Assembly: GCA_029253285.1 (NCBI GenBank)
Contig: JAQWZU010000048.1
Coordinates: forward strand, 1-44,259
Direction: 5' to 3'
Source of the DNA: Akkermansiaceae bacterium
GTDB lineage: Bacteria; Verrucomicrobiota; Verrucomicrobiia; Verrucomicrobiales; Akkermansiaceae
DNA: 44,259 nucleotides
The notes beneath the pieces were generated by a model. It had not been told where the DNA came from. It did no database searches and saw nothing but the letters and a program-made list of their open reading frames with translations. Shown one piece after another: positions 4,676 through 37,910 of the stretch. Each line of letters begins with the position of its first letter. Position 1 is the first letter of the stretch. The translations under genes and the position numbers were made by a program.

Positions 4676-5285
4676 GCCGCCCGTGTTTCGTGCCGCCCGC
4701 CAAATCGAGTTTGCTTTTCTGCAAGAGAAGCAGAGTGAGCATGTGGAGCCGAGTGTTTCGGAGTGTTGCTCGCATCTGATGGGGATGGATACAAATCTCA
4801 CCGAGACCTGCACCAAGATTTTGTTAGAAATGGGTCTCGATGATTTGGCCAAGCGGGTGAGCGTGGGCTGGAATCGACGGATGCGCTCGAGTGCTGGGCG
4901 CGCGACCTGGCCGACGGCATTGATTGAATTGAATCCGCGTTTGCCGGATATTTCCCAGGAAGAAGTTCGCCGGACGATGTTGCATGAGTTGGCGCATTTG
5001 GTGGCCTACGAGCGGAATGGAAATCGACGTATTCAGGCGCACGGTCCCGAGTGGCAGCAGGCTTGTGCTGATGTCGGTATCCCCGGTGAGAAGGCCACGC
5101 ATCGTTTGGAGCTTCCTTCGAGATCAATAAAGCGGCGTTGGCGTTATCAATGCCCTTCATGTGGGACGAGCTTTGACCGGGTTCGTCGGTATAAGGGTCG
5201 GGTGGCTTGTTACGAATGTTGCAGCAATGTAAATGGTGGCGATTACCACGAAAGCTTCCGCTTGATGGAGCTTAGTTTGGCGTAA
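4674..5285 (+). CDS. SprT-like zinc metalloprotein
   Basis: A SprT-family protein of up to 203 residues. It carries HELAH at H104-H108, a downstream histidine in QAHGPEW that completes the zinc site, and a C-terminal zinc ribbon with CPSCG and CYECC. The layout resembles the bacterial SprT domain and the protease domain of eukaryotic SPRTN, which degrades DNA-protein crosslinks. A proteolytic DNA-repair role is plausible but not shown for bacterial members. The start is uncertain: ATG 4674 adds ~35 residues before the conserved part (LTETCTKILLEMGL) and sits on top of a good -10 element, so ATG 4779 (168 residues) or 4785 may be the real start. The last 14 bases overlap the convergent PAS-AraC gene. 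Confidence 0.8.
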   Translation: MPPVFRAARQIEFAFLQEKQSEHVEPSVSECCSHLMGMDTNLTETCTKILLEMGLDDLAKRVSVGWNRRMRSSAGRATWPTALIELNPRLPDISQEEVRRTMLHELAHLVAYERNGNRRIQAHGPEWQQACADVGIPGEKATHRLELPSRSIKRRWRYQCPSCGTSFDRVRRYKGRVACYECCSNVNGGDYHESFRLMELSLA

Positions 5286-6015
5286 GTCGCTTGCGGTAGT
5301 CTCTCGGTGACATGCCGATAAGTTCGGAGAATTTTTTCGAGAAGGCCGAGTGATCGTAGAAGCCGACTTGAAGCGCGATCTCAGTCATGGGCATTTTGGT
5401 GTTTACGAGGAATTCACAGGCTTCGAGGATTCTTAATCGTCCAACGTATTTTTGCGGACTGGTTTTGAAAGTGTTCTGAAAACGTCGTTGGAGTTTTCGG
5501 ACGGACATGCCGACGCTCTTGGCGAGGTCGGGCATGGAGACTTTGGAGGCCGAATTGTTTTTAAGATACTCGGTGACGGGAAGGAGATCGAGGTAGGGTT
5601 GAAGTGAGGTGCGGACGCCTTCAAAGCTTTTGACCAGGCCGCAGACTCCGGCGACTTTCCCTTCCTGGTCGAAGAGTGGGATTTTGTTGGTCACGAACCA
5701 CTCGGGTGTGCCGAGTTGGTTGGGGAAAAGTTCGACAATTTCGATGAGGGGTTCCTTTGTCGAGAGGACCTTGCGGTCGTCGTTCATGTATTTCTCGGCC
5801 ATTTCGATGGGGAAGATTTCGCGGTCGGATTTTCCGATCATTTCTTCCTCGGACTGAAAGCCGCAGCGTTCCACGAAGGTCTGGTTTCCAGCCATGAGCC
5901 GGAGCTCTAGATCTTTGACGAAATAGAGGGTGTCAGGCATGTAATTGAAAAGCCCGGAAACCTGTCCAGGGCAGAGTTTTTCGACCCATCGCCTCTTAAT
6001 GTCTTGGGACAGCAT
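5272..6015 (-). CDS. PAS-AraC transcriptional regulator, divergent from a sugar oxidoreductase
   Basis: A 247-residue cytoplasmic regulator. Residues ~15-130 form a PAS-type sensor (FNYMPDTLYFVKDLELRLMA ... NKIPLFDQEGKVAGVCGLV). Residues ~150-245 form an AraC-type double helix-turn-helix with the family phrase MSVRKLQRRFQNTF, then MTEIALQVGFYDHSAFSKKF and GMSPRDYRKR. A PAS domain in place of the usual cupin arm suggests that it senses a small molecule, redox state or cofactor; the ligand is unknown. It is divergent, across 72 bases, from the Gfo/Idh/MocA gene at 6088, so that operon is its likely target. A paralogue of the same plan lies at 30804-31583 beside xylA. Its end overlaps the SprT-like gene by 14 bases. 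Confidence 0.85.
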   Translation of the reverse strand: MLSQDIKRRWVEKLCPGQVSGLFNYMPDTLYFVKDLELRLMAGNQTFVERCGFQSEEEMIGKSDREIFPIEMAEKYMNDDRKVLSTKEPLIEIVELFPNQLGTPEWFVTNKIPLFDQEGKVAGVCGLVKSFEGVRTSLQPYLDLLPVTEYLKNNSASKVSMPDLAKSVGMSVRKLQRRFQNTFKTSPQKYVGRLRILEACEFLVNTKMPMTEIALQVGFYDHSAFSKKFSELIGMSPRDYRKRLTPN

Positions 6016-6087: not shown

Positions 6088-7218
6088 ATGTCGAACGAGA
6101 AGATTAATATCGCGATTGTCGGGCTGGGCTTTGGTGCCGAGTTTATCCCTATTTACCAGCGTCATCCGCATGCCAATATGGTGGCTATTTGCCAGCGGAC
6201 GCAGTCAACCTTGGATGAAATCGGAGATAAGTATGGCATTGAAAAGCGCTATAATGATTACGACGCTCTCTTGGCTGATCCGGAGATCGATGCGGTTCAT
6301 ATTAATACCGCGATTCCGGATCATGCGGCCCATACGATTGCGGCCTTGAAGGCTGGGAAGCATGTTGCTTGCACCGTGCCCATGGCGACTTCGGTGGAGG
6401 ATTGCCGACAGATCGTGGAACTCTGTCAGCAGACCGGCTTGAAATACATGATGATGGAGACGGTGGTTTACGCCCGGGAGTTTCTCTTCATGAAGGAGCT
6501 CTACGATAAGGGGGAGCTCGGAAAGTTGCAGTTTTTGAAAGCATCCCATCAACAAGACATGGAAGGCTGGCCGGGTTACTGGCCGGGGCTGCCGCCGATG
6601 CATTATGCGACGCATTGCGTGGGGCCTGTTTTGGGCCTGGGTCGCCATGAAGCGGAGTATGTTTCGTGCTTTGCATCGGGAACGATCGCGGAGGAGATGC
6701 ACGAGTGTTACGGGTCGCCCTACGCTATCCAGAGTTGTCACATTAAATTTAAGGACAGTGATCTTTCGGGGCTTGTTTACCGTTCGCTCTTCGATGTGGC
6801 GAGACAGTATCGGGAGTCGTTTGAAGTCTACGGCGTGGATAAATCAGTGGAATGGCCTTTGATCGAAGGGGAGCCCCTTGTGGTTCACACGGCGAAGAAG
6901 CCGGAGCCCGAGATCCCGGAGAAAGTTGAGTGTCCCGATTTTGCGCATTTGCTCCCTGATGAAATCGCGCCCTTCACGACGGGTGGCGTCTACGGAGGTG
7001 ATGAAGGAGAGGACCATCTGTCCTATACCCAAGGTGGAGGTCATGGAGGATCCCATCCCCATTTGGCTCATCAATTTGTGGAATTGCTGAGAGGCAAAGG
7101 CGAGGGGTATCCCAACGCGGCTCAATCAGCAAATATTACTTGCACGGGAATTCTTGCCCACGAGTCTGCTCAAAAAGGTGGAGAGCTCATCAAGCTTCCT
7201 GAGTTCACCCTGCAATAA
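6088..7218 (+). CDS. Gfo/Idh/MocA-family oxidoreductase with altered EKP motif
   Basis: A 376-residue NAD(P)-dependent sugar oxidoreductase-like protein. The N-terminal Rossmann fold has the dinucleotide loop VGLGFGAEF. The C-terminal alpha/beta domain has a candidate catalytic histidine in MHYATHCVG. The usual EKP motif, whose lysine contacts the cofactor and substrate, is replaced by TVP in HVACTVPMATS. The enzyme is therefore either a divergent subgroup with different chemistry or one using another lysine. It has a histidine- and glycine-rich loop near residue 310-330 (GGGHGGSHPHLAHQF). It has no signal peptide, so it acts in the cytoplasm. The ATG follows the 72-base divergent region, and the exported ThuA fusion starts 8 bases after its stop, so the two are co-transcribed. 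The substrate is unknown; a sugar or sugar derivative is likely. Confidence 0.8.
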   Translation: MSNEKINIAIVGLGFGAEFIPIYQRHPHANMVAICQRTQSTLDEIGDKYGIEKRYNDYDALLADPEIDAVHINTAIPDHAAHTIAALKAGKHVACTVPMATSVEDCRQIVELCQQTGLKYMMMETVVYAREFLFMKELYDKGELGKLQFLKASHQQDMEGWPGYWPGLPPMHYATHCVGPVLGLGRHEAEYVSCFASGTIAEEMHECYGSPYAIQSCHIKFKDSDLSGLVYRSLFDVARQYRESFEVYGVDKSVEWPLIEGEPLVVHTAKKPEPEIPEKVECPDFAHLLPDEIAPFTTGGVYGGDEGEDHLSYTQGGGHGGSHPHLAHQFVELLRGKGEGYPNAAQSANITCTGILAHESAQKGGELIKLPEFTLQ

Positions 7219-7226
7219 TCATCGCC

Positions 7227-10200
7227 ATGAAACGTCTCGCTTTAATGATACCGCTGGTGCTGATTGCGGCACTCTCTTTCGCGTTGAACAAAGCGGAGAC
7301 GCTGGAGGAGAAGCAGGGTCCGGTTCGGATCTTGTTTCTTGGGCATGATTCGAAACATCACAATTCCAATGCTTACTTTCCAATGCTTTCCAGGGCTTTG
7401 GGGCGGGATGGGATTTACTTCGATTACCATACCAATGTTGAGGAAGCCTTGGGAGACGCGGAGTATTTGGCGAAGTTCGATGGAGTGCTGCTCTACGCAA
7501 ACCACAACGCGATCACACCGAAGCAGTTTCAGAATTTGACGCAGTTCATTGAGAATGGCGGCGGATTTATTCCGGTGCATAGCGCGAGTGCATGTTTTGG
7601 AAACGAGCCAGAATTTGTGAAGTTGGTCGGAGGTAAGTTCGCCCATCACAAAGGGAAGGAATTCAAGACCTCGGTAGTGGCTCCGAAGCATCCGGCGATG
7701 AAGGATGTGAAGGAATTTAAAGCATGGGATGAAACATATGTGCATTCCGGTCATGGAAGTGACCGCACGATTTTAATGGTCCGGAAACCAGAGGGCGATG
7801 ACAACGTGAGTGAACCCGAGCCATGGACCTGGACCCGGGAGCAAGGAAAGGGGCGCGTTTTTTACACGGCCTCGGGACATGATCAACGGGTATGGTCGCG
7901 CGGGGAATTCCACCAACTCTTGAAGTCGGGAATTCTTTGGTCAATCGGTGATGAACGAAAGGAGAGTTACGATTTATTTGTTTCGTCGCGCAAAGCTCTG
8001 ACTTATGAAACGCGGGACAATATTCCCAACTACGAGAAGCGGCCCAAGCCATTGCGGTATCAGCATCCGCTGAGTCCTGAGGAGAGTTTGAAATATACCC
8101 AGGTTCCGGTGGGTTGGAAACTTCAGCTTTTTGCAGCCGAACCCCAGATTGTGAATCCGATTGGCTTGGCCTGGGATGAGCGCGGACGGCTTTGGGCAGC
8201 GGAGACTTTGGACTACCCGAATGAGATTAAGGCTGAGCGCAAAGGCGCGGATAAGATTAAAATTCTCGAGGACACGAATGGAGATGGTCGATGTGACAAG
8301 GTGACGGTCTTTGCTGACGGTCTCAACATTCCGACCTCTCTGACATTTGGAAATGGTGGCGTTTATGTTCACCATGCCGCCGAGACTCTCTTCCTCAAAG
8401 ACACCAATGGAGATGATAAGGCTGATGTCCGGGAGGTTGTCCTCAAGGGATGGGGAACGGGAGACACCCATGCGGGGCCGTCGAATCTTCGCTATGGCTT
8501 GGATAACCAGATTTGGGGGACGGTGGGTTATTCCGGTTTCTCCAATAATGGTCAGAGGTTTGGAATGGGAGTGTATCGTTTTACCAAGAGTGGTTCCTCC
8601 CTGGAATTTCTCCACCAATTCAATAACAATACCTGGGGAATAGGGTTCAATCCATCCGGTGACGTTTTTGGTTCCACAGCCAACAATAACCCCAGCTTTT
8701 TTGGAGGGATTCCGGCAACCATTCTTCCGGGAGGAAAAGGTCTCAGTGCCAAGATGATTGCATCGTCTCCCACCTTCCATCCCATCACGCCGAATATTCG
8801 TCAGGTCGATGTCTTTGGGGGCTACACTGCGGCAGCGGGTCATGCCTTTGCGAACTCGGACAACTTCCCGGAATCATGGCGCGGTAACAGGGCCTTTGTG
8901 GCCGGGCCGACGGGGAATCTTCTGGGCATGTTTGATACGAGTCGTGATGGTGCGGGATATAAATCTAAGAATGCTTTTCAGTTAGTTGCTTCGGCTGACG
9001 AGTGGTTTTCGCCGGTTGCTGCCGAAGTAGGTCCCGATGGAAACCTTTGGATCTCGGATTGGTATAATTTTATCATTCAGCATAATCCGACACCGAATGC
9101 GGGTCGAGGTGGATACGATGCCAGGAATGGAAAAGGAAACGCTCACATCAACCCAAACCGGGATCGGCAACATGGACGAATCTATCGCTTGGTTTGGGAT
9201 GAAGCGCCAAAGTCAAAAACGAAGTCGCTTGCGGGAGCTTCCACCAATGAATTGGTTGCGGCATTATCCGACCCCAATCAGTTCTGGCGGTTGACGGCGC
9301 AGAAGCTTTTGGTCGATGGTGAGAAGGTTGAGGCCTTACCAAAATTGAAGGCTCTTGTCGCGAATCGCGGTGTGGGTTCGATCCATGCTCTGTGGAGTCT
9401 TGATGGTCTGGGCGCTCTGGATTCCGAGACTCACCGTGGTGCGTTGCTTTCGACGGATCCTGTCTTGCGGAGAAATGCCATTCGTGCTCTTCCGCATACT
9501 CAAGCGGGTGTCGCCCTGATGTTTCAATCAGGCGTGATCAACGATTCGGATCTCACCACTCGTCTTGCGGCATTCGTTGCCTTGGCGAAATTTCCATCAA
9601 GTGATCCGGTTAAGAATGCCGTCACTTCTCTGGGCAATAACGAAGTAAACCAAAAAGACGTTTGGTTGTCGGCAGCTCTGGCTGCGTCGAGGGAGAGGCA
9701 TCAGGCCGCAGATTTAGCTGATTTGGAATATGAGGAGTCGAAAAAGAATCTCGTGGAAAACGTGAACTGGAAGGTTTTCATTCATAGCGGGAGTGGGGCT
9801 CAACATATGCTTCCGGAAAAAGAGGGTTCCAAGGGAGGGAAATGCTTAAAAATTGAATCTGCAAAACCGACCGACACTTCGTGGGGAGGGGTGGTTCAGG
9901 TTAAGCCGAACACGCGATATCGCTTGCGGGGAAAAATAAAAACAGAGGGTATTAAAGGTGGCGGAATGGGAGCGCTTTTTAATGTTCACGAACTACAGAG
10001 TCCTACGCGCGTTGCCACCAAGGCTTTGAAAGGAAAGAACGGCTGGACTGAAGTCTCGGTGGACTTCAATTCGATGGGGCGCTCCAAGATTACCATCAAT
10101 GCACTCTATGGTGGTTGGGGTCAATCAACCGGAACAGCTTGGTGGGATGAGATCCGACTTTCTGAATTGGTTGCGGTTCCCAAGGTCGTTTCGAAGGTGA

Positions 10201-10490
10201 AACTGAAACCCGGCGACGGCGCGCGGGGGAAGGTTCTCTTCAATACCCATCCGGTGGCTGCTTGTAACCGATGTCATGCGATTTCTGGAACAGGTGGCGT
10301 AATCGGGCCGTCTCTGGATACCATTGCTGGAAGGAAAGACCCCGACTACATCAGGAGATCCCTTCTTGAACCGAATACGGAAATAGCGGAAGGTTATCCC
10401 TTGAAGGTATCGCCAATGCCTCCGATGAATCTCCTTTTGGAGCCTCAAGAGATTGAGGATATTTTGGCCTATCTTCAGACACTGAAATAG
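7227..10490 (+). CDS. Exported ThuA / PVC-type dehydrogenase / HEAT / CBM-like / cytochrome c fusion protein
   Basis: A 1087-residue protein with an N-terminal signal peptide or anchor (MKRLALMIPLVLIAALSF). Domains in order: ThuA-like (about 30-240, opening RILFLGHDSKHH and including GGGFIPVHSAS); a PVC-type membrane-bound dehydrogenase propeller (about 280-640, with NPIGLAWDERGRLWAAETLD and two DTNGD loops); helical HEAT-like repeats (about 655-810); a beta-rich carbohydrate-binding-like segment (about 835-960); and a C-terminal cytochrome c with CNRCH at 1013-1017 and a candidate axial methionine in SPMPPM. ThuA proteins act on 3-keto-disaccharides in trehalose and sucrose catabolism. The propeller resembles glucose/sorbosone dehydrogenases. 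The fusion suggests periplasmic sugar oxidation or cleavage with electrons passed to the heme. The activity is inferred; the domain order is read from the sequence. Confidence 0.85.
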   Translation: MKRLALMIPLVLIAALSFALNKAETLEEKQGPVRILFLGHDSKHHNSNAYFPMLSRALGRDGIYFDYHTNVEEALGDAEYLAKFDGVLLYANHNAITPKQFQNLTQFIENGGGFIPVHSASACFGNEPEFVKLVGGKFAHHKGKEFKTSVVAPKHPAMKDVKEFKAWDETYVHSGHGSDRTILMVRKPEGDDNVSEPEPWTWTREQGKGRVFYTASGHDQRVWSRGEFHQLLKSGILWSIGDERKESYDLFVSSRKALTYETRDNIPNYEKRPKPLRYQHPLSPEESLKYTQVPVGWKLQLFAAEPQIVNPIGLAWDERGRLWAAETLDYPNEIKAERKGADKIKILEDTNGDGRCDKVTVFADGLNIPTSLTFGNGGVYVHHAAETLFLKDTNGDDKADVREVVLKGWGTGDTHAGPSNLRYGLDNQIWGTVGYSGFSNNGQRFGMGVYRFTKSGSSLEFLHQFNNNTWGIGFNPSGDVFGSTANNNPSFFGGIPATILPGGKGLSAKMIASSPTFHPITPNIRQVDVFGGYTAAAGHAFANSDNFPESWRGNRAFVAGPTGNLLGMFDTSRDGAGYKSKNAFQLVASADEWFSPVAAEVGPDGNLWISDWYNFIIQHNPTPNAGRGGYDARNGKGNAHINPNRDRQHGRIYRLVWDEAPKSKTKSLAGASTNELVAALSDPNQFWRLTAQKLLVDGEKVEALPKLKALVANRGVGSIHALWSLDGLGALDSETHRGALLSTDPVLRRNAIRALPHTQAGVALMFQSGVINDSDLTTRLAAFVALAKFPSSDPVKNAVTSLGNNEVNQKDVWLSAALAASRERHQAADLADLEYEESKKNLVENVNWKVFIHSGSGAQHMLPEKEGSKGGKCLKIESAKPTDTSWGGVVQVKPNTRYRLRGKIKTEGIKGGGMGALFNVHELQSPTRVATKALKGKNGWTEVSVDFNSMGRSKITINALYGGWGQSTGTAWWDEIRLSELVAVPKVVSKVKLKPGDGARGKVLFNTHPVAACNRCHAISGTGGVIGPSLDTIAGRKDPDYIRRSLLEPNTEIAEGYPLKVSPMPPMNLLLEPQEIEDILAYLQTLK

Positions 10491-10565
10491 TTCATCTTGG
10501 GAAGATGAAGCTTGACCCGGCGGGGAGGGTTAAGCCTAACTCATTGGAAGACACAGTCTTTTAAT

Positions 10566-13500
10566 ATGATAGATCATCATCGTTTTCTCTTAAGGTGTTT
10601 TCTGGCGATCATTCTCTCGCTCTTCTCGAATTCTACTTTGTCCGCTCAATCTGTGGTCATTTCCGAATTCATGGCCTCCAATGACAACATTTTGAATGAT
10701 GAGGATGGCGATAGTGAGGACTGGATTGAGATATTTAATGAAGGTGCATCGGTGGTGAATCTTACCGGATGGCATTTGACTGACGATGCCGCTTTGCTGA
10801 CAAAGTGGACCTTTCCGAATGTCACTCTTGATCCCGGAGAGTTGCTCGTTGTTTTCGCATCCAATAAAGATCGGGTTGATCCGGCGGGAGAGTTGCATAC
10901 AAACTTTAAGCTCTCCAGTTCGGGCGAATATCTCGCGTTGGTTCGGGATGATGGGGCGACGGTGGAATATGATTTCGGCCCAAGCTATCCTCAACAGGTC
11001 ACTGACGTGTCCTATGGACTTCAGCAGTCGACCAACACTACGACCCTAATCGCAGGTGGTGCTTCCGCGAAATACAAGGTTCCCACGAATGCCACCGATG
11101 ACGTCAATGAGGGGACTAATCCCAACTCATGGATCGGAACCAATTTCAACGACACCTCCTGGATCAGCGCAACGACCGGGATCGGATATGCGACGGGTAG
11201 TCCCGATGCTTATGATCCTTTTATTGCGAGCGATGTGCAGACAGAAATGTCCTCAAACGGGCGTCCCTCTATCTATATTCGGATTCCCTTCACCGTTGCT
11301 AATCCAACTGACTATTCGTCGTTGAGCTTGAAGATGAAGTACGACGATGGCTTCGTGGCTTATCTCAATGGCGATCCTCTTTCAGTCGCTGAGATCAATA
11401 ATCCGTCGCCCGATCAACTGAACTTCGAATCAATCGCGACGGCAACCCATGATGATGGAGACTCGATTGTTGATGAAGTTTTCCCGCTTTCGACTTCACT
11501 TCTTAATGTGGGAAACAACGTGCTGTGTATTCACGGACTGAATCGTTTTGCGACAAGCTCAGATGCGCTTTTTCTACCGACACTCGAGGGGGTCGAAATC
11601 ACCGGAGGTGCGACACCGGCCTACTTCACCTCGCCTACACCGGGATCGGCGAATATTGCCGGAGTTTCCTCTCCCGGGCCGCTCGTTCGGAGTGTGACAA
11701 AAGACCTGCCGCCTTTGGATCTCGGTGCTGGAAATCTCGTCATCGAAGCGGATATCACTCCGACACTCAATCCCATTGCCAGTGTCAGTTTAGTTTCACG
11801 GATCATGTATGGAGGAGAAACGACGCTTGCCATGGTAGACGACGGGACGGGAGCTGATACGACCGCAGGTGACGGAATTTACACGGCCACAATTTCAACC
11901 GCCGGAATGACGGCCGGGCAGATGCTCAGGTGGCGGGTCACTGCTTTGGATACGATGGGAGACAGTTCAAAATTGCCGCTTTTTCCTGATCCTTTGGATT
12001 CACCGGAATATTTTGGAACAATTGCGGAGGATCCATCGGTGGACAGCTCCAACCTTCCGATTTTTCATTGGTTCACCTCCAGCCCGAGTGGAGCCACCAC
12101 CAATTCAGGATCGCGTGGATCGGTTTATTACTTAAATCAATTCTACGATAATATCCAGGCTGATCGGCATGGGCAATCGACTGGTGGCTTTCCCAAGAAG
12201 AGCTACGACTTTGACTTTAATAAAGGAGATCGCTTTCTCGTCGAGCCCGGAGGGAACCGTGCCAAGGACATCAACATGCTCACTAACTGGGCGGATAAAT
12301 CCAAGACGAGGAACACCATTGGCTATGAGATGATGCGGAAGTCAGGTCATCCTGCACACTATGCCTTTCCGGTAAGAATTCAGCAGAACGCTGCCTTTTT
12401 TAATATTGCTGATTTCGTGGAAGATGGCGATGACCGCTATCTGGAGAGAGCGGGCCTGGATGGAGAAGGGGCGCTTTATAAAATGTATAACCGTCTCGAT
12501 TCCTCCTCGAGCGGGATCAACAAGAAGACCCGCAAAGAAGAGAGTAATAGTGATCTCGCTGCTTTGGTTTCAGGGTTGGGGCAGTCGGGAGAGGCCAAGT
12601 TACGCTTCGGGTATGACAACATGAATATCCCGGGAACGATCAATTATTTGGCTGCTCTCGATATGACGAATAATAGCGATCACGGACATAAAAATTATTA
12701 TCTCTATCGTGATACCAATGGGACTGAGGAGTGGCGTCCGTTGATTTGGGATATCGATCTCAATCTTGGGCGGAATTGGCGGAGTGGGCCGGCATATTTT
12801 GACGACGTTTTTCGCGATAATAACCTCCGGGCGGGGCCCTCTAATCGGATGAAGGATCTGGTTTTCGATGATTCGACTTTGAACAATATGTTCCGTCGTC
12901 GGGTAAGAACTCTCATGGATGAAATGTATGGTTCTCCTTCCTCTCCAAATAATTATTTGCAAGATCGCGTCAATGAATTGGTGGCTTTGATCGATCCGAC
13001 TGATGACAATGCTAATACGGGATCAGACGACGCGGATCTTGATTATCAGCTGTGGGGATCATGGGGGAACAACAACGCGATGCGTGCTGCTTCCAATCGT
13101 ATCTTAACGGAGTATATCCCTTCGCGTCGCGCCCAGCTTTATGGTCTTGGCGAGCTTCCTTCGGCACAACCGGTGGCGGCTCCGATCAATATTAGCTCGG
13201 TTGATTTTAATCCGGCATCGTCAGGGGCATCGTCAGATCAGAGCGGGGAATATTTCACTTTGACCAACCTCAATACCTACGCTGTGGATTGTTCCGACTG
13301 GGTGATTTCCGGAGGAGTATCGCTCACCCTGCCGCCGGGGGCGGTGATTCCGGTCGGAGGGACACTCTACGTGGGAAGAGATGCCGTGGGATTCAGAGCG
13401 CGGAGTGTGAGTCCGAAGGCTGATGAGAAACGGTATCTCGTGAGCGGGTATGGCGGGCAGCTTTCAGCGAGGGGTGAAACGATTCTCCTCCACGATCATC

Positions 13501-14483
13501 TTGGTAACCTCATCGATAGCGAGACCTATGTCGGAAGTGAAACACCATCGCAGCAATATTTGCGGATCACCGAATTGCTTTATGCTCCGGTTGGGCCGAC
13601 GGCAGGAGAGCTTGCAAGCATACCAACCTTGAGCGCATCGGATTTCGAATTCATTGAGTTGGTTAATAACAATCAAGTGAATCTGGATCTCAGTGGTGCC
13701 CGGTTTGTTGAAGGTGTCACGATGACCTTCGCAGGTGGAACGGTCTTGAGCCCCGGACAAAGGATTATCGTGGTCGCAAACCAGGCGGCCTTTGAGTTGC
13801 GGAATGGAGCAGGGCAGCCGATCCTTGGAGAGTTCACCGGGAATCTCAGTAATGGTGGAGAAGAAATCCAAATCATCGACAGCGTTGGGGAGAATGTCCT
13901 CGAATTTAGCTACCGCGACGACTGGTATGGTCAAACTGATCAGGACGGCTATGCCTTGTCTTTGCTGGATCCGCTTGGGACGCCGGTCACCGATTTTGAC
14001 CAGGTTGAAAACTGGGGGATCAGTTTAGCGGTTGGAGGAGATCCCGGACAATCGGCTTCGGGGTTTTCGTCGAGTTTCGAGTATTGGAAAAACCAGGAAT
14101 TCACCCAAGCTCAGGTTTTGGACCCCTTGGTAGTCGGGGAGCTTGTTGACCTCGATGGCGACACATTGGGAACTCTTCTCGAATATGCTCTCGGACTTGA
14201 TCCAGAGGTAGCCGACACAGGTTTGGGATATAGCAGCTTGATCGCGTCTGACGGGGGTTCAGATTACCAGGCTCTCAGTTTTAGGCGGCAGAAAAATACC
14301 CTGGATATGACCTACACGGTGCAAGTTAGTGACGATCTTGAAAACTGGAATCCTATTTCCCAGGTCGTTGGGACGCCCGTCGACAATGGCGATGGCACGG
14401 AGACAGTGATTATTCGCGATGCTTTGGTTCATCCGGCGGGTAATCAGAGATTCATCCGCTTGTCCGTTGCTCTGACTCCCTAG
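10566..14483 (+). CDS. Secreted lamin-tail-domain / CotH-kinase-like protein, 1305 residues
   Basis: A very large secreted protein. ATG 10566 is followed by a clear signal peptide ending near LSAQS; the frame also has a TTG at 10512, which is unlikely. A lamin-tail domain follows (about 27-145, VVISEFMASND ... DWIEIFNEG). Next come a beta-rich stretch and a CotH-like domain (about 590-860, with LDGEGALYKMYN, KNYYLYRDTNG and PLIWDIDLNLG). Two more lamin-tail-like domains (about 875-1115) and a C-terminal module (VDLDGDTLGTLLEYALG ... YTVQVSDDLENW) complete it. CotH of Bacillus spores is a protein kinase, but function in these long Gram-negative proteins is unknown. It follows the ThuA fusion by 75 bases on the same strand and may belong to that operon. 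The C-terminal module is a type often found on verrucomicrobial surface proteins. Confidence 0.85.
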   Translation: MIDHHRFLLRCFLAIILSLFSNSTLSAQSVVISEFMASNDNILNDEDGDSEDWIEIFNEGASVVNLTGWHLTDDAALLTKWTFPNVTLDPGELLVVFASNKDRVDPAGELHTNFKLSSSGEYLALVRDDGATVEYDFGPSYPQQVTDVSYGLQQSTNTTTLIAGGASAKYKVPTNATDDVNEGTNPNSWIGTNFNDTSWISATTGIGYATGSPDAYDPFIASDVQTEMSSNGRPSIYIRIPFTVANPTDYSSLSLKMKYDDGFVAYLNGDPLSVAEINNPSPDQLNFESIATATHDDGDSIVDEVFPLSTSLLNVGNNVLCIHGLNRFATSSDALFLPTLEGVEITGGATPAYFTSPTPGSANIAGVSSPGPLVRSVTKDLPPLDLGAGNLVIEADITPTLNPIASVSLVSRIMYGGETTLAMVDDGTGADTTAGDGIYTATISTAGMTAGQMLRWRVTALDTMGDSSKLPLFPDPLDSPEYFGTIAEDPSVDSSNLPIFHWFTSSPSGATTNSGSRGSVYYLNQFYDNIQADRHGQSTGGFPKKSYDFDFNKGDRFLVEPGGNRAKDINMLTNWADKSKTRNTIGYEMMRKSGHPAHYAFPVRIQQNAAFFNIADFVEDGDDRYLERAGLDGEGALYKMYNRLDSSSSGINKKTRKEESNSDLAALVSGLGQSGEAKLRFGYDNMNIPGTINYLAALDMTNNSDHGHKNYYLYRDTNGTEEWRPLIWDIDLNLGRNWRSGPAYFDDVFRDNNLRAGPSNRMKDLVFDDSTLNNMFRRRVRTLMDEMYGSPSSPNNYLQDRVNELVALIDPTDDNANTGSDDADLDYQLWGSWGNNNAMRAASNRILTEYIPSRRAQLYGLGELPSAQPVAAPINISSVDFNPASSGASSDQSGEYFTLTNLNTYAVDCSDWVISGGVSLTLPPGAVIPVGGTLYVGRDAVGFRARSVSPKADEKRYLVSGYGGQLSARGETILLHDHLGNLIDSETYVGSETPSQQYLRITELLYAPVGPTAGELASIPTLSASDFEFIELVNNNQVNLDLSGARFVEGVTMTFAGGTVLSPGQRIIVVANQAAFELRNGAGQPILGEFTGNLSNGGEEIQIIDSVGENVLEFSYRDDWYGQTDQDGYALSLLDPLGTPVTDFDQVENWGISLAVGGDPGQSASGFSSSFEYWKNQEFTQAQVLDPLVVGELVDLDGDTLGTLLEYALGLDPEVADTGLGYSSLIASDGGSDYQALSFRRQKNTLDMTYTVQVSDDLENWNPISQVVGTPVDNGDGTETVIIRDALVHPAGNQRFIRLSVALTP

Positions 14484-31699: not shown

Positions 31700-33010
31700 A
31701 TGTCCGAATATTTTCCTAACATTCCCAAGATCCAATATGAGGGTCCCGATTCCGATAACCCATTGGCCTTTCACCACTATAACCCGGAAGAGGTGATTGC
31801 CGGCAAGTCGATGCGGGATCACATGCGCTTCGGCGCTGCATATTGGCACTGCATGCGTAATGGATTGGGTGATCCATTTGGAGAGGGCACTGCTTTGATG
31901 CCATGGGACGATGGCAGTGACTCGCTGGATAATGCGATCGCGCGCGTTCCGGTCTTTTTCGAATTCCTCGAGAAGATTGATATCGACTACTATTGTTTCC
32001 ACGACCGCGACATTTCTCCCGAAGGGGAGACGCTCGCTCAGACTCACGAAATGTTTCACCGGGTGGTTGATGAGTTTGAAAAGTATCAGCAATCCAGCGG
32101 CAAAAAACTTCTCTGGGGAACTGCATGCCTTTTCTCCCATCCACGATATGCTCACGGAGCATCAACTTCACCCAATGCCGATGTCTTCGCCTATGCAGCC
32201 AGTCAGGTGAAAAATGCCATCGACGCGACTCATCGTCTCGGCGGTCCAGGCTATACTTTCTGGGGTGGGCGCGAAGGATATGGTTCATTGATCAACACCG
32301 ACATGAAGCGTGAGGTGGATCATCTGGCGGCCTTCCTTCACCTTGCTGTCGATTACGCCAAGAAGATTGGCTTCACTGGTCAATTTTACATTGAGCCCAA
32401 GCCACGGGAACCTTCTACCCACCAGTATGATTCCGATTCGGCGGCTTGTTTGAATTTCCTTCGCGAATATGATCTCCTTGAACACTTCAAGCTGAACCTT
32501 GAGACCAACCACGCCACTCTCGCCGGCCATACCATGGAGCACGAGATGGAAGTGGCTATCGGAGCCGGAGCTCTTGGTTCGGTTGATGCCAATCGTGGTG
32601 ACGAGCTTCTCGGATGGGATACCGACCAGTTCCCAACCAATCTCTACGGCACGACCAATATCATGATCCGCCTCCTTAAGATGGGTGGGTTCACTACCGG
32701 TGGACTTAACTTCGATGCCAAGCGTCGTCGCGAAAGTCACGAGCCCGAAGATCTCTTCCACGCTCACATCGGAGGGATGGATGCCTTCGCACGTGGCTTG
32801 AAAGTTGCCTCCAAAATCATCGAAGACGGGAAGTTCGACGACTTTGTGAAGACCCGCTATGAGTCCTTCGACTCAGGGATCGGCGGTCAGGTTGAAGCGG
32901 GATCTACCAGTCTTGAAGACCTCGATTCCTACGCCGTTGGTATCTCTCCTCCGCAACTTACGAGCGGACGTCAGGAACGTCTCGAGAATCTACTCAACGA
33001 TTACCTCTAG
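31700..33010 (+). CDS. xylA: Xylose isomerase (class II)
   Basis: This enzyme converts D-xylose to D-xylulose with two divalent metal ions. It has 436 residues, the class II length. Motifs are the catalytic H101 and D104 in [21 protein letters not shown], the metal-binding [15 protein letters not shown], the histidine of [12 protein letters not shown], and [16 protein letters not shown]. It resembles the enzymes of anaerobic fungi and Bacteroides as much as that of E. coli. It is the first gene of the operon; xylB starts 12 bases after its stop. The divergent PAS-AraC regulator probably controls it. No xylose transporter gene is in the operon. Confidence 0.97.
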
Positions 33011-33022
33011 GATTATTCGGCC

Positions 33023-34573
33023 ATGTCTCTCGTTCTAGGATTAGATTCTTCGACCCAAAGCCTCTCGGCGGTTCTTCTTGATGCTGATCAAGGTGTCGTC
33101 GTGGCCGAGGACTCGGTGAGTTTTGGAGACGATCTCCCCCAATACCAACAAGCCCACGGTTATGCTGAAGGCGGAGTGAGAGGGGAGATCCATGCGAATC
33201 CCATGATGTGGGTCGAGGCCCTGGATCTCCTCCTGGAACGAATGAAATCCAATGGGGTGGACTTCAGTTCTGTCGTTGCTGTTTCCGGTTCCGGACAACA
33301 GCACGGGAGTGTCTATCTTCGGTCTTGTTTTGGCGAGAAGCTCTCTCAATTGGACTCCGCTCAGAGTTTGGCTGAGCAAATCGAAGGATGCCTGACTCGA
33401 AAAAGCTCTCCGATCTGGATGGACAGTTCGACTTCCGCGGAATGTGCCGAGATTGCTTCGGCGGTGGGTGGAAATGAAGTCGTTTGCGCCAAGTCCGGTT
33501 CGATTGCCGTGGAGCGTTTTACCGGATCTCAAATTCGGAAATTTTCTAAAACAGAACCAGAGGCCTACGCCGAAACGGGAGTGATTCATTTGGTAAGTTC
33601 ATATTTCGCTTCCATCCTCGCGGGCAGGAATGTCGCGATCGATCGAGGCGACGGGGCCGGAATGAATCTCATGAATCTCGCTTCCGGTGAATGGGACGAT
33701 GATTTGGTGGATGCCACTGCGGATGGACTGAAAGTAAAACTTCCTCCTGTCGCTCCTTCGAATACCAACTCAGGGCCGATTTCGTCATACTTTGTGCAGA
33801 AGTATGGCTTCAGCAAAAACTGCCAAACCGTGATCTGGTCCGGAGACAACCCCTGTAGCCTCATCGGGATGGGCGCAGCCAAACCGGGCAAGGTGGTCAT
33901 TAGTTTGGGAACCAGCGATACTTTGTTCGCGGCTATGCCCGAGCCGAAGACCGACCCAAATGGCTACGGTCATGTCTTTGGTAATCCTGTCGGTGGCTTC
34001 ATGAGTCTCATCTGTTTTAAGAACGGATCACTCGCCAGAGAAGCGATCAAAGACCAATTCAATCTCGAATGGTCCGCCTTCGAAAAAAGCGGACTCGCGC
34101 AGACACCTATCGGAAACGACGGCATTCTTATGTTGCCGTTTTATGAACCGGAGATCACACCCCGTATTGATACCGGTGGTCCGGTGTTTTCTACTGATAA
34201 CGCACTCACTCCAGAACAAAGCGTCCGAGCTGTTTTAGAATGCCAATTCCTCAATATGCGAAACAATTTCGGATGGCTCGGAGTTGATCCGACTCGTATC
34301 TCTCTCACCGGTGGCGCATCGGCGAACGATGGAATCGCCCAAGTCGTCGCAAATGTCTTCGGGGTTCCTGTAGATCGTCTTGATGCTCCCGGATCTGCCA
34401 CTATCGGAGCAGCAATGCGGGCAGGACATGCAATTGGAATCGACCTCGATGTCCTTGAGGGTAATTTCTCACAAGCCAAAGAAGGTTCGACTATTGAGCC
34501 TGAAGAGGGGGCGTTTGAAATCTACCAACAAATGCTTCCTCAGTTTGCCCAATTCATTTCGAGCCAACACTAA
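33023..34573 (+). CDS. xylB: Xylulokinase, close in sequence to animal-type XYLB
   Basis: This FGGY-family kinase phosphorylates D-xylulose to xylulose 5-phosphate for the pentose phosphate pathway. It has 516 residues, longer than E. coli XylB (484). Landmarks are [29 protein letters not shown], the catalytic loop region [68 protein letters not shown] and [14 protein letters not shown]. From GAGMN onward the wording follows human XYLB ([43 protein letters not shown]) more than the E. coli enzyme. This places it in the subgroup shared by eukaryotes and some bacteria. It is the second gene of the xyl operon. Confidence 0.93.
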
Positions 34574-34595
34574 TTCTCAAAAACTAAATTATATT

Positions 34596-35651
34596 ATGCC
34601 AAGACCAGTCACCCTCTTCACCGGCCAGTGGGCCGATTTGCCACTCGTCGAGCTCCTACCTAAAGTTAAGGGAATGGGTTACGACGGAGTTGAACTCGCC
34701 TGTTGGGGCGATCACTTTGATGTGCAAGCCGCCCTCAATGACGACAGCTACATTGCAAATCATTGGGAGCTTCTTAAAAAGAACGACCTCGCGTGTTACG
34801 CCATTTCATCCCACCTTGTGGGGCAGGCGATCTGCGACAATATCGATGAACGCCACGCGGCAATTCTCTCGCCTGAAATCTACGGCGACGGAGATCCTGA
34901 AGGAGTTCGCCAGCGTGCCGCCCAGGAGATGATTGATACCGCCAAAGCGTGTCGTAAGTTTGTCGACGCGGGCGCTGACTATATGGCAGGAAAGCTTCCT
35001 TCCGGGATCGGAGCCGTTGTCAACGGCTTTACCGGCTCCAGCATCTGGCATGCGCTCTACGCGTTCCCTCCGACCGACCAAGCGTTCCTCGAAAAAGGCT
35101 ACGTCGATTTTGCAAATCGCTTTGGACCAATCCTTGATGCTTTCGAGGAACAGAATGTCAATTTTGCACTCGAAGTTCACCCAACTGAAATTGCTTTCGA
35201 CATCGCTACTGCTGCCCGCGCCATCGAAGCCGTTAGTGGACACAAGCGATTTGGCTTTAACTACGATCCAAGCCACCTGGGCTACCAGGGTGTCGATTAC
35301 GTCCGCTTTATCCGCGAATTCGCAGACCGCATCTTCCACGTTCACATGAAGGACGTCTGGTGGGGGCACGGTGACGGAACAGTTGGTGTCTTCGGTGGAC
35401 ACACGGATTTCTGCGATGCACGTCGCGCCTGGGATTTCCGTTCGGTCGGACGTGGCGATATCAACTTTGAAGAGATCATTGTCGCCCTGAACGACACCCA
35501 ATACAGTGGACCTCTCTCGGTTGAATGGGAAGATGGACGGATGGAGCGTTTCCACGGTGCCACCGAAAGTTGCGCCTTCACCAAAGCTCTCGACTTCCCG
35601 CGCAACGAAGGTGGGATGTTTGACTCGGCATTCGACGGAGATAACCAGTAA
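34596..35651 (+). CDS. TIM-barrel sugar isomerase/epimerase-like protein (AP endonuclease 2 superfamily)
   Basis: A 351-residue TIM-barrel protein of the sugar phosphate isomerase/epimerase group (IolE/AP-endonuclease-2 fold). It starts [17 protein letters not shown] at ATG 34596; the open frame upstream lies inside xylB. Candidate metal ligands are in [15 protein letters not shown] (Glu), [10 protein letters not shown] (Asp, His), FHVHMKDV (His) and [11 protein letters not shown] (Glu), the normal set for a divalent-metal site. Relatives include epimerases, dehydratases and beta-eliminases that act on keto-sugars made by Gfo/Idh enzymes. It sits between xylB and two Gfo/Idh genes in one operon (22 and 12 bases apart), so it probably acts on a keto-sugar or sugar-lactone intermediate. 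The exact reaction is unknown. Confidence 0.82.
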
Positions 35652-35663
35652 GAACGAATTATT

Positions 35664-36743
35664 ATGGCAACTAAAATTGGAGTAATCGGAGCAGGTGGAA
35701 TGCTGCAGTATCATGCAGCTGGGTTTAAACAAGGCGGAGGCGAAATCGTCGCCGTCGCAGACGTCGCACCTGGCGCCGCCGCAGCAGCAGCTGAAAAATA
35801 CGATATCGCGCAGTCATTCGAGAGCGTCGAGGAAATGCTTGAGAATTCGGGCTGCGATGCGGTAAGTATTATCGTTCCCAACAAATTCCACGCGCCACTG
35901 GCGATCCAGTGCATGCAGGCCGGAAAGCACGTCTTTTGTGAGAAGCCTCCCGCGCTTACCGCAGAGGAGGTCGAAGAAATGATTGGAGTTTCCCAAGCGA
36001 CCGGGAAGCGTCTCATGTTCAACTTCAACAACCGGGCGCGTCCCGAGTCCCGTGAGATGATGAAGTTTATTTCAGCAGGCGATGCCGGAACGATCAATTC
36101 GGCGCAAGCCAAGTGGATCCGGCGTACCGGCATTCCGGGCTTCGGCGGTTGGTTTACGACCAAGGCTCTGTCTGGAGGAGGGCCACTCATCGATCTTCTT
36201 CACATGGTGGATCTCGCGATGTATTTCATGGGATACCCTGAGCCGGCTCACGTCATGGGGCAGACCTTTGACACTTTCATTACCGACAAGGGCTTCAAGG
36301 GCCCGTGGGGAATTCCAGACCGTGAAGATGGCGTCACCGACGTTGAAGCCGCTGCTCATGGATTTGTTTCCTTTAAGACAGGACAGGTTCTTTCGCTTCA
36401 GGTTTCTTGGGCCGAGATGATCAAGCGCGAAGAGGTTTCAGTTGTTTTCCAGGGCACTCAAGCTGGAGGAAAAGTAGAACGCCTCTTTGGCACCGATGGT
36501 CTGGATGAAACGGCGATCGATACCTGTGAGCTCTATGTTCAGGAAGATGGAAAGTCAGTTGACCGCACCGTCGTTGTCGAGGAATGCGAAGACATGGGCC
36601 GGATTAATTCCGCTGCCAACTTCGTGGAGGCTATCGATGGTAAAGCCGAACCTCTCAATACACCGGATCAGGCGCTTTCCCTGATGAAGGTGATTGATGC
36701 TATTTATCATTCTGCACAAAGCGGGCAACCAGTCAGCCTCTAG
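35664..36743 (+). CDS. Gfo/Idh/MocA-family oxidoreductase (xyl operon, first copy)
   Basis: A 359-residue NAD(P)-dependent oxidoreductase. The Rossmann loop is VIGAGGMLQYHAAGF, the EKP motif is intact in HVFCEKPPALTAEE, and the catalytic region is GGGPLIDLLHMVDLAMYFMG with the expected aspartate and histidine. It has no signal peptide, so it is cytoplasmic. It lies 12 bases after the TIM-barrel gene and 12 before the second Gfo/Idh gene. The two copies share only the family core and probably act on different carbons or substrates. It is likely a sugar or sugar-glycoside dehydrogenase acting with the TIM-barrel protein; the substrate is unknown. Confidence 0.85.
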   Translation: MATKIGVIGAGGMLQYHAAGFKQGGGEIVAVADVAPGAAAAAAEKYDIAQSFESVEEMLENSGCDAVSIIVPNKFHAPLAIQCMQAGKHVFCEKPPALTAEEVEEMIGVSQATGKRLMFNFNNRARPESREMMKFISAGDAGTINSAQAKWIRRTGIPGFGGWFTTKALSGGGPLIDLLHMVDLAMYFMGYPEPAHVMGQTFDTFITDKGFKGPWGIPDREDGVTDVEAAAHGFVSFKTGQVLSLQVSWAEMIKREEVSVVFQGTQAGGKVERLFGTDGLDETAIDTCELYVQEDGKSVDRTVVVEECEDMGRINSAANFVEAIDGKAEPLNTPDQALSLMKVIDAIYHSAQSGQPVSL

Positions 36744-36755
36744 TCCTCTAGAATT

Positions 36756-37910
36756 ATGAATCGTAAACTTAGAATGGGAATGGTCGGTGGAGGCCGTGGA
36801 GCCTTCATTGGACAAGTCCACCGCATGGCTGCCAATTTGGACGGCAAAATCGAATTGGTCGCCGGGGCGTTTTCTTCTGACCCTGAAAAGTCCAAGCTCT
36901 CGGGGCAGGACTTCTTTATTGATCCAGAGCGGGCCTATGGGAGCTACGAGGAAATGGCTGCGGCCGAAGCGGCCCGTGAAGATGGTGTCGATTTTGTCAG
37001 CATCGTGGTGCAGAACCACCTTCACTTTACGGTGGCCAAAACCTTCCTCGAAGCAGGCATCAACGTGATTTGCGACAAACCGCTCGCGTTGAATATCGAT
37101 GAAGCCAAGGAGCTTCAGGAGATTGTTCACAATTCAGATCTCGTTTTCGCGCTGACTCATAACTACACGGGTTATCCGATGGTTAAGGAAGCCAAGCGGA
37201 TGCTTGATGAAAAGGAATTGGGACGCGTACTCAAAATCGTCGTGGAATATCCGCAGGGTTACGCTGTGGGAGATGTCGAAGGGGAAGGTTCAGGTGCCAT
37301 CGCGAACTGGCGCGCCGATCCCAAGATCGCCGGAGCATCTAATTGCATGGGTGATATTGGAACACATGCTCATAATCTCGCCCGTTACATCACCGGGCTG
37401 GAAATCGATGAACTTGCGGCCGAGTTGACTGCCTTTATTCCTGGCCGTGAATTGGATGATGATGGAAATTGCCTTGTTCGTTTCGAAGGTGGAGTGAAGG
37501 GAATTATTTACGCTTCCCAGATTTCCAATGGAGACGAAAATAATCTTAATATCCGCATCTATGGGACCAAAGCTTCCATTGAGTGGCATCAGGAAGATCC
37601 CAACGAGCTTATCGTCAAGTATGCCAATGCTCCGCGGAAGACCTATCGCCGTGGAAATGACTATCTTGGCGAAGCCGCCAAAGGTAATAGTCGGACCCCG
37701 TTTGCGCACCCTGAAGGCTTCATCGAGGCATTTGCCAATGTCTATTTAGCCGCCGCCGCTGCAATTATTGACAAGATCGATGGGAATGAAGCGCCGGAGG
37801 GTGATTATGACTTCCCGACGGTTGACGACGGAGTTGCCGGCATGGCCTTTATCAAGGCTTGTGTTGAGTCATCCCAAAACAACGCAGCCTGGACCAAGCT
37901 CGACACCTAA
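36756..37910 (+). CDS. Gfo/Idh/MocA-family oxidoreductase (xyl operon, second copy)
   Basis: A 384-residue member with Rossmann loop MVGGGRGAFIGQVHRMAA, the conservative motif variant DKP in NVICDKPLALNIDEA, and the catalytic stretch GDIGTHAHNLARYITG with aspartate and two histidines. The GGGxGAFIGxVHR opening is the type found in levoglucosan dehydrogenase-like and other sugar 3-dehydrogenase-like members, which oxidise a glycoside to a 3-keto form so that the glycosidic bond can be opened. That role here is inference. It is the last gene of the xyl operon; a strong terminator follows 20 bases after its stop. Confidence 0.85.
   Translation: MNRKLRMGMVGGGRGAFIGQVHRMAANLDGKIELVAGAFSSDPEKSKLSGQDFFIDPERAYGSYEEMAAAEAAREDGVDFVSIVVQNHLHFTVAKTFLEAGINVICDKPLALNIDEAKELQEIVHNSDLVFALTHNYTGYPMVKEAKRMLDEKELGRVLKIVVEYPQGYAVGDVEGEGSGAIANWRADPKIAGASNCMGDIGTHAHNLARYITGLEIDELAAELTAFIPGRELDDDGNCLVRFEGGVKGIIYASQISNGDENNLNIRIYGTKASIEWHQEDPNELIVKYANAPRKTYRRGNDYLGEAAKGNSRTPFAHPEGFIEAFANVYLAAAAAIIDKIDGNEAPEGDYDFPTVDDGVAGMAFIKACVESSQNNAAWTKLDT

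Follow-up and report, generated by a model that had tools for sequence, protein, structure and literature searches.

What does a predicted exported protein do that joins, in a single chain, a ThuA domain, a PVC-type propeller, a helical repeat, a carbohydrate-binding-like domain and a cytochrome c? This question is raised by the open reading frame (ORF) at 7227-10490 on the + strand of contig JAQWZU010000048.1 from an Akkermansiaceae bacterium (assembly GCA_029253285.1), of which positions 1 to 44,259, hereafter the window, were analyzed. A sequence-only reading of this DNA had proposed a self-contained machine that oxidizes and opens a glycan outside the cytoplasm and passes the electrons to the respiratory chain. 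We find that the parts are known modules, and sequence comparisons suggest that their joint function is oxidation-first glycan breakdown.

Domain architecture

The ORF is intact from the ATG to the stop codon and encodes 1087 amino acids, which rules out a pseudogene. A check of the domains by profile hidden Markov models (HMMs) had been set beforehand, and both the ThuA domain and the propeller were found over their cut-offs. ThuA (PF06283) was identified in Pfam at residues 36-238 (E 2e-34; 120.1 bits against a gathering score of 33.4), and the propeller was recovered both as DUF7133 (PF23500) in Pfam, at residues 283-656 (E 1.1e-105; 354.6 against a cut-off of 27), and with the PVC-type NCBIfam model TIGR02604 (Piru_Ver_Nterm), at residues 296-657 (E 1.1e-67; 229.1 bits against 122.2). 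The C-terminus matched Cytochrom_C (PF00034; residues 999-1087, E 1.2e-9) in Pfam. Matches to TIGR02603 (44.2 against 68.15), HEAT_2 (22.2 against 27.7 bits) and CBM_4_9_1 (16.7 against 27 bits) were under the cut-offs, the 3-keto-disaccharide hydrolase family PF06439 gave no match at E 0.01, and no PSCyt model was listed for the protein in the Pfam scan.

The AlphaFold2 model, which was built from a 49-sequence alignment, has a mean predicted local distance difference test (pLDDT) score of 87.4 and a predicted template modeling (pTM) score of 0.80. It displays, in this order, a signal-like helix, an alpha/beta ThuA domain, the propeller, a helical repeat (residues 673-825), a beta sandwich (residues 833-985) and a helical cytochrome. 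The propeller strands were grouped by hand as six four-stranded blades, with 297-304 as the closing strand. A helix at residues 2-20 followed by a low-confidence segment at 21-27 is compatible with a Sec signal peptide, and judging from this predicted signal the protein is likely exported. Between the HMMs and the model, all domains named in the sequence-only reading (ThuA, PVC-type propeller, HEAT-like, binding-like, CNRCH cytochrome c) are present, and they are arranged as follows:

7227..7298, + strand: predicted Sec signal peptide (approximately residues 1-24), by eye and from the helix in the AlphaFold2 model
7332..7940, + strand: ThuA domain (residues 36-238), from PF06283, an own-genome search, conservation and a Foldseek match to 4e5v (E 1.1e-9)
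8073..9194, + strand: PVC-type six-bladed propeller (residues 283-656), DUF7133/TIGR02604, from HMMs and the VIA-align alignment to 3a9g
9243..9701, + strand: HEAT-like helical repeat (residues 673-825), clear in the model, with a profile match to alphaRep proteins; HEAT_2 under the cut-off
9723..10181, + strand: carbohydrate-binding-like beta sandwich (residues 833-985), from the 4d0q profile, Foldseek and the strands of the model; Pfam under the cut-off
10221..10487, + strand: one-heme cytochrome c domain (residues 999-1087), from PF00034 and the conserved C1013, C1016, H1017 and M1064
10263..10277, + strand: CNRCH heme-attachment motif (residues 1013-1017), from the sequence and the C-terminal CxxCH of relatives

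In Foldseek searches of the PDB with the model, the ThuA domain also matched 4jqs and 1t0b. Residues 833-985 matched the binding module of hyaluronate lyase, 4d0q, both by profile (E 1.1e-11) and by Foldseek (TMt 0.67), along with CBM16 and CBM4 entries, and two relatives, L151 and L074, are over the CBM_4_9 cut-off. From its predicted structure, this region is like the carbohydrate-binding modules (CBMs) of families 4, 9 and 16, and its carbohydrate binding is putative.

Distribution and conservation of the family

One genome per species was scanned for relatives, and the best 80 of 149 loci were kept; these named loci underlie all counts out of 80. With full length defined as a match that starts at or before residue 45, in ThuA, and ends past residue 1070, in the cytochrome, 62 of the 80 named loci encode the ThuA-to-cytochrome protein, so that the architecture is not due to chance and, the same frame being found in so many loci, an assembly artefact is ruled out. 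The remaining 18 comprise 13 that a contig end truncates and five that differ, namely L136 and L142, which are described below, L133 (ThuA, propeller, CBM-like match and cytochrome plus extra sequence), L144 (which terminates after HEAT) and L156 (692 amino acids only). A 3238-amino-acid ORF in L155 is an artefact from a run of N, and the long N-termini of L151 and L155 are probably start-choice artefacts, because they overlap the neighboring partner gene (see below).

According to their titles, the hosts of the named loci are verrucomicrobial metagenome-assembled genomes, except for Deltaproteobacteria, Marinovum and two loci from one bin, "Bacterium"; the titles also suggest that several of the host genomes are marine. 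In the set of relatives, 42 of 58 genomes, the host included, contain a match with an E value of at most 1e-60; some of these matches are partial or fall on other propeller proteins. Of 288 genomes sampled evenly across the phylum, 16 (hereafter the carriers) have a match at 1e-120; the match begins only at residues 226-247, without ThuA, in six of the carriers, and others stop short of the CBM. Two further observations concern copies of the gene. A second ThuA, 66% identical and located at an end of contig C214 of the host genome, G000 (3-743), may belong to an additional copy there. In a genome of the same genus (G014, contig C21, 48134-51213), the gene is split into three pieces that overlap, one of which contains stops, and is decayed or mis-assembled.

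Conservation was assessed in an alignment, A1, of 49 of 59 representatives, the window protein included, all of which were required to match through the cytochrome, for which reason the copper variants described below are absent from it; the 10 representatives left out include long or open-ended ORFs. Invariant positions account for 19% of both the ThuA domain (41 of 216) and the propeller (73 of 378), as compared to 11% of the cytochrome and about 3% of the HEAT (6 of 185) and CBM (4 of 140) regions. The invariant ThuA residues include H45, N92, H141, D168, E169, H173, H218 and D219. These results show an established, conserved and coherent family, in which known modules stand in a variant arrangement.

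Exchange of modules at both ends of the protein

The C-terminal domain contains one CNRCH motif, of which C1013, C1016 and H1017, as well as M1064 further on, are invariant in all 49 sequences of A1, which were selected to reach the cytochrome end. From the motif and the conserved M1064, covalent attachment of heme to the mature protein is predicted. A CxxCH motif was found within the last 150 residues in 67 of the 72 named loci with the 3' end present. In L136 and L142, an azurin/plastocyanin-type copper domain takes the place of the cytochrome at the C-terminus. PF00127 matches these two proteins over the family cut-off (E 3.7e-5 and 7.3e-8, respectively), the azurin model matches them under its cut-off (E 1.9e-8 and 5.9e-5), and their Cys, His and Met residues are placed at what we take to be the azurin spacing. 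The first part of a copper domain was also identified in L135, where the contig ends. In a FastTree tree of 76 rows (75 of the 80 named loci and the window protein, with labels on 59 rows), the heme/copper state changes twice, in two branches; the tree gives no direction, and heme, as the common state, would be ancestral. The exchange of one small electron carrier for another is hard to explain unless the C-terminal domain carries electrons. The host genome contains COX1, the heme-copper oxidase subunit I, and a cytochrome c assembly protein (PF01578), so that an outlet for these electrons exists. A search of the host genome for ResB gave no match; taken alone this would have suggested an absence of cytochrome c maturation, which is countered by the presence of PF01578.

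The N-terminal slot is exchanged as well. In L004, from the same genome as the window, a 3-keto-disaccharide hydrolase domain (PF06439, E 1.8e-31) occupies the slot of ThuA and is followed by the PVC propeller, HEAT and cytochrome c. Three more paralogues of this genome vary the arrangement: in L195, PF06439 follows the propeller, HEAT and cytochrome, in L042 it is joined to a ThuA domain found in two stretches, and L196 reads ThuA-F5/8C-propeller-HEAT-cytochrome. These domain families are represented in the 4.3-Mb genome by 38 matches to PF06439 (35 over the cut-off), 37 to DUF7133 (34 over the cut-off, and some being two pieces of one frame) and 16 to ThuA (12 over the cut-off). In the available portion of PMC9007349, a DUF1080 (PF06439) protein is proposed to hydrolyze 3'-ketolactose in the periplasm, downstream of LacABC.

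In addition, a sulfatase with a CHPSR motif is fused N-terminal to ThuA in L126, L127 and L128, giving chains of 1544 to 1724 amino acids with the partner gene directly upstream; L126 and L127 are close relatives in the tree. These fused sequences hint at sulfated glycans as the substrate in some relatives. Sulfatase genes in the neighborhood (0.83 per 10 kb within 3 kb of the named loci versus 0.53 beyond; 24 of 80 loci) were rejected as evidence, since the enrichment is too weak, and the three fusions alone were counted.

The swaps of heme for copper and of ThuA for 3-keto-disaccharide hydrolase, together with the added sulfatase, turn into a testable claim, namely that these proteins are oxidation-first glycan degraders with built-in electron outlets. 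PVC propeller proteins are numerous in the host genome, and the window protein offers a sharp test of the role of this class.

Fold and conserved face of the propeller

Aligned to PDB entries with VIA-align, the propeller of the predicted model gave a Z-score of 28.4 with the PQQ (pyrroloquinoline quinone) sugar dehydrogenase 3a9g (root-mean-square deviation 2.9 over 287 residues), 27.9 with the AA12 entry 6h7t and 23.8 to 25.0 with Acinetobacter glucose dehydrogenase entries. Blades and faces were assigned by hand from the strands of the AlphaFold2 model. The invariant positions of the propeller in A1 comprise 36 of 129 top-loop, 16 of 78 bottom-loop and 21 of 157 strand residues, and are often polar in the top loops; their density thus peaks in the loops on what is canonically the active face, as expected for an active site. 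Two invariant DxNxDGxxD-like loops (D349/D353/D357 and D392/D396/D400), a pattern that we take to be a calcium-binding motif, suggest that the propeller may bind calcium.

A partner gene resembling GH109

The gene upstream is transcribed in the same direction, and a regulator gene lies on the opposite strand:

6088..7218, + strand: partner gene, Gfo/Idh/MocA fold, GH109-like, from PF01408, the 2ixa profile, the GHGG loop and the absence of EKP
5272..6015, - strand: divergent PAS and AraC-type regulator, candidate regulator of the pair, from PF08448 and PF12833

The partner ORF ends 8 bases upstream of the start codon at 7227 and has no signal peptide by eye. A homologue (at least 50% identity, within 400 bases and on the same strand) adjoins the gene in 30 of the 80 named loci, 17 times upstream and 13 times downstream, and in 21 of the 49 loci with at least 1.3 kb on both sides. 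The epithet "self-contained", which the sequence-only reading had given to the machine, is therefore not supported. The state of the partner (upstream, downstream or none) changes at least eight times over the 59 labelled tree rows, so that in several clades the pairing has been re-established or has survived rearrangement, and other clades lost it or lack it. A regulator related to the 5272-6015 product was identified within 3.5 kb in 18 of the 80 named loci.

PF01408 alone is over the Pfam cut-off in the partner, where Pfam shows general Gfo/Idh/MocA domains only. The best PDB profile match is 2ixa, the GH109 alpha-N-acetylgalactosaminidase (E 1.1e-22), in a partial alignment whose second stretch, the one with the loop, is a weak match by itself; the profile scores of glucose-fructose oxidoreductase and DgpA are almost equal. 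The EKP motif is usual in the Gfo/Idh/MocA superfamily. It is absent from all 28 partner relatives, and the site reads TVP in all 18 sequences of the partner alignment (A2). A GHGG loop, preceded by G or A, is present in 18 of 18 sequences of A2 and in 28 of 28 relatives, and the loop of 2ixa also reads AGHGG; the window encodes two other Gfo/Idh/MocA proteins, both of which lack the GHGG loop, and one of which carries EKP. GH109 is described in the available portion of PMC10628242 as acting by elimination linked to transient oxidation, and, according to a title in its reference list (Teze 2020), the acid/base of GH109 is located in a GGHGG loop. The partner thus shares with GH109 the best profile match, the GHGG loop and the lack of the EKP lysine, but differs in its general Pfam domains and in the partial extent of the 2ixa alignment. 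Since its predicted model is poor (mean pLDDT 53.3), this likeness is a resemblance at the sequence level: the partner resembles the NAD-dependent glycosidases of GH109, and its activity is putative.

Proposed mechanism

The analysis establishes which domains are present, their predicted fold and conservation, the module exchanges and the gene surroundings. The scheme that follows is inferred in each catalytic step, in C3 as the site of oxidation, in the identity of cofactor, substrate and electron acceptor, and in where the two proteins are located. In it, the CBM-like domain would hold a glycan or oligosaccharide while the top face of the propeller would oxidize a ring hydroxyl to a keto group, most likely at C3. 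The electrons would pass to the tethered C-terminal heme and on to the respiratory chain. ThuA, at the N-terminus, would act on the keto-sugar, either by isomerization or by helping to cleave the activated glycosidic bond. After import of the product, the GH109-like partner in the cytoplasm may then process it with the same type of chemistry, linked to NAD. We consider the chances about even that the core of this scheme is right, in which the propeller oxidizes, the tethered carrier receives the electrons and ThuA acts on the keto-sugar. The module swaps are its strongest support. No evidence was found for trehalose, sucrose or a xyloside as the substrate, all of which had been put forward from the sequence alone.

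In a bolder version, which strikes us as rather doubtful, the protein would be a respiratory glycosidase: a glycan hydroxyl would be oxidized at a propeller site not made for PQQ, the electrons would go to the heme of the same chain (in relatives, to copper), ThuA would open the oxidized sugar, and the breakage of the bond would feed the respiratory chain. The redox center of the propeller would then be new. If the oxidation scheme holds, such bacteria would possess an entry into glycans that is coupled to respiration and that annotation based on glycoside hydrolases misses; the glycans might be sulfated ones from algae.

Evidence against oxidation and alternative explanations

Several observations weigh against oxidation by the propeller, the strongest being the missing PQQ site and the activity published for a relative, Lac161_ORF7. 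The PQQ residues were mapped in a joint MAFFT alignment, in two modes, with E. coli YliI, other GSDH proteins and intermediates. Of the YliI residues that we take to be PQQ ligands, R214 corresponds to N467, K314 to T562 or P561, R341 to W593 and R343 to S595, all of them non-basic, so the basic PQQ-binding residues are not kept in the propeller. YliI N215 corresponds to N468, an Asn retained, and YliI H147, presumably the catalytic His, aligned within one residue of the invariant H415. An ungapped reading by eye differs from the MAFFT map by two positions in the last blade and has no Arg or Lys there in either version; a profile-profile alignment of the propeller with YliI was shifted by whole blades, so that residues could not be mapped from it. 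Among the close set of 38 genomes, which includes the host, none gave a match to PqqC; these are draft genomes, with no positive control among them. In the phylum sample of 288, the PqqC model matched 8 genomes (6 over the cut-off), none of them among the 16 carriers, the inclusion of which in that sample was presumed from its equal size and handles. With the ligands not kept and PqqC not found in the host, the propeller is left without an assignable redox cofactor: it may hold another redox center, bind scavenged PQQ at an altered site, or be no dehydrogenase at all.

PQQ might be taken up from outside despite the PqqC-negative genomes, and the protein might then be a PQQ sugar dehydrogenase that binds scavenged PQQ in a changed manner and oxidizes C1 to an aldonolactone, on which ThuA would act. 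This would agree with the fold common to the PQQ aldose dehydrogenases and AA12 and with the positions of N468 and H415, and the invariant R525 could stand in for a lost Arg. Yet four basic ligands would have been lost, PqqC is missing from the carriers examined, and the fusions to 3-keto-disaccharide hydrolase suit C3 better than C1, which makes this explanation quite improbable.

The other strong objection comes from the available portion of PMC5342196, where Lac161_ORF7, a TIGR02604-HEAT_2-Cytochrom_C protein from a Chthoniobacter-like cosmid that was purified from E. coli BL21(DE3)pLysS, is reported as a beta-galactosidase that frees glucose from lactose with a Km of 1.8 mM and a kcat of 13.2 per s, and where no electron acceptor is named. 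The kcat/Km printed in Table 3 of the same paper, 7.3 x 10^4, is tenfold above 13.2 per s / 1.8 mM. As the one biochemical result found for such an architecture, Lac161_ORF7 favors, by analogy, plain hydrolysis. The window protein may accordingly be pictured as a plain metal-assisted glycoside hydrolase or lactonase, with the cytochrome or copper domain serving in redox sensing or envelope docking. The loss of the PQQ ligands would fit, as would calcium bound in the two DxNxDGxxD-like loops, and the propellers of the lactonase 8djf (Z 24.2) and of DFPase 3hli (Z 23.8) score near those of the dehydrogenases in VIA-align. However, BL21(DE3)pLysS has a lacZ of its own, a cytochrome or cupredoxin is kept at the same end of the protein and their swap points to electron transfer, and the N-terminal slot is common to ThuA and 3-keto-disaccharide hydrolase. 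On balance, we regard plain hydrolysis as rather unlikely, though the likeliest of the alternatives.

The remaining objections concern the modules around the propeller. The action of ThuA on keto-sugars is putative here, the published role of PF06283 proteins being known by citation. An adjacent partner is missing in 28 of the 49 loci with room on both sides. PF06439 proteins are also taken for ordinary endo-glycosidases, so the fusions are no proof of C3 oxidation: the available text of PMC9007349 also names an endo-xanthanase of the PF06439 family, and in that of PMC5673643 DUF1080 proteins are taken for ordinary glycosidases. An explanation without catalysis, in which ThuA, propeller and CBM are mainly binding modules of an electron-transfer or scaffold component of the cell envelope, would agree with the HEAT repeats, the large multidomain layout and the weak conservation of the HEAT and CBM regions, but accords poorly with the many invariant positions in ThuA and the propeller, which in the latter reach their highest density in the top loops and are often polar there. 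We consider it very unlikely.

The earlier proposal of glycan oxidation with electrons passed on is thus strengthened by the azurin-like swap, by PF06439 in the ThuA slot, by the sulfatase fusions and by the GH109-like neighbor, whereas its redox step is weakened by the absence of PQQ-binding equivalents and by the plain hydrolase activity reported for Lac161_ORF7.

Comparison with described systems

In a literature search that mostly did not reach subscription papers, we recognized none on ThuA joined to this propeller. The protein shares its propeller, HEAT and C-terminal cytochrome with the PVC-type heme-binding CxxCH proteins (TIGR02604/DUF7133), but differs from them by the N-terminal ThuA and the CBM-like domain before the cytochrome. 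Likewise, Lac161_ORF7, also from Verrucomicrobia, has the order propeller-HEAT-cytochrome c, but no ThuA is reported in the available description, on which the comparison rests. The PQQ aldose dehydrogenases and AA12 pyranose dehydrogenases have the six-bladed propeller in common with the predicted model (Z about 24 to 28), whereas the window protein lacks equivalents of their PQQ-binding Arg and Lys and PqqC was not found in its host.

The LacABC-type pathways with PF06439, as far as described in the available portion of PMC9007349, are alike in the proposed oxidation-first breakdown of glycosides outside the cytoplasm, and in paralogues from the host genome PF06439 is joined either to ThuA or to a propeller of the same type; the window protein differs in having ThuA instead and the electron carrier in the same chain. 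The planctomycete-specific cytochromes PSCyt1-3, the functions of which are stated as unknown in the available portion of PMC5615132, bear CBMs and are located near sulfatases in Verrucomicrobia. They resemble the window protein in combining cytochrome and carbohydrate-binding domains, but the latter matches PF00034 and DUF7133.

Other genes in the window

Directly downstream, at 10512-14483, lies a gene for a CotH-kinase protein with lamin-tail (LTD) domains; it was rejected as a component of the system, because a relative is adjacent in three close relatives only. Further along, a sugar catabolic cluster at 31700-37910 encodes two xylose-isomerase-like TIM barrels, an FGGY kinase and two Gfo/Idh/MocA oxidoreductases, and possibly serves a deoxysugar, for which rhamnose or fucose would be our guess.

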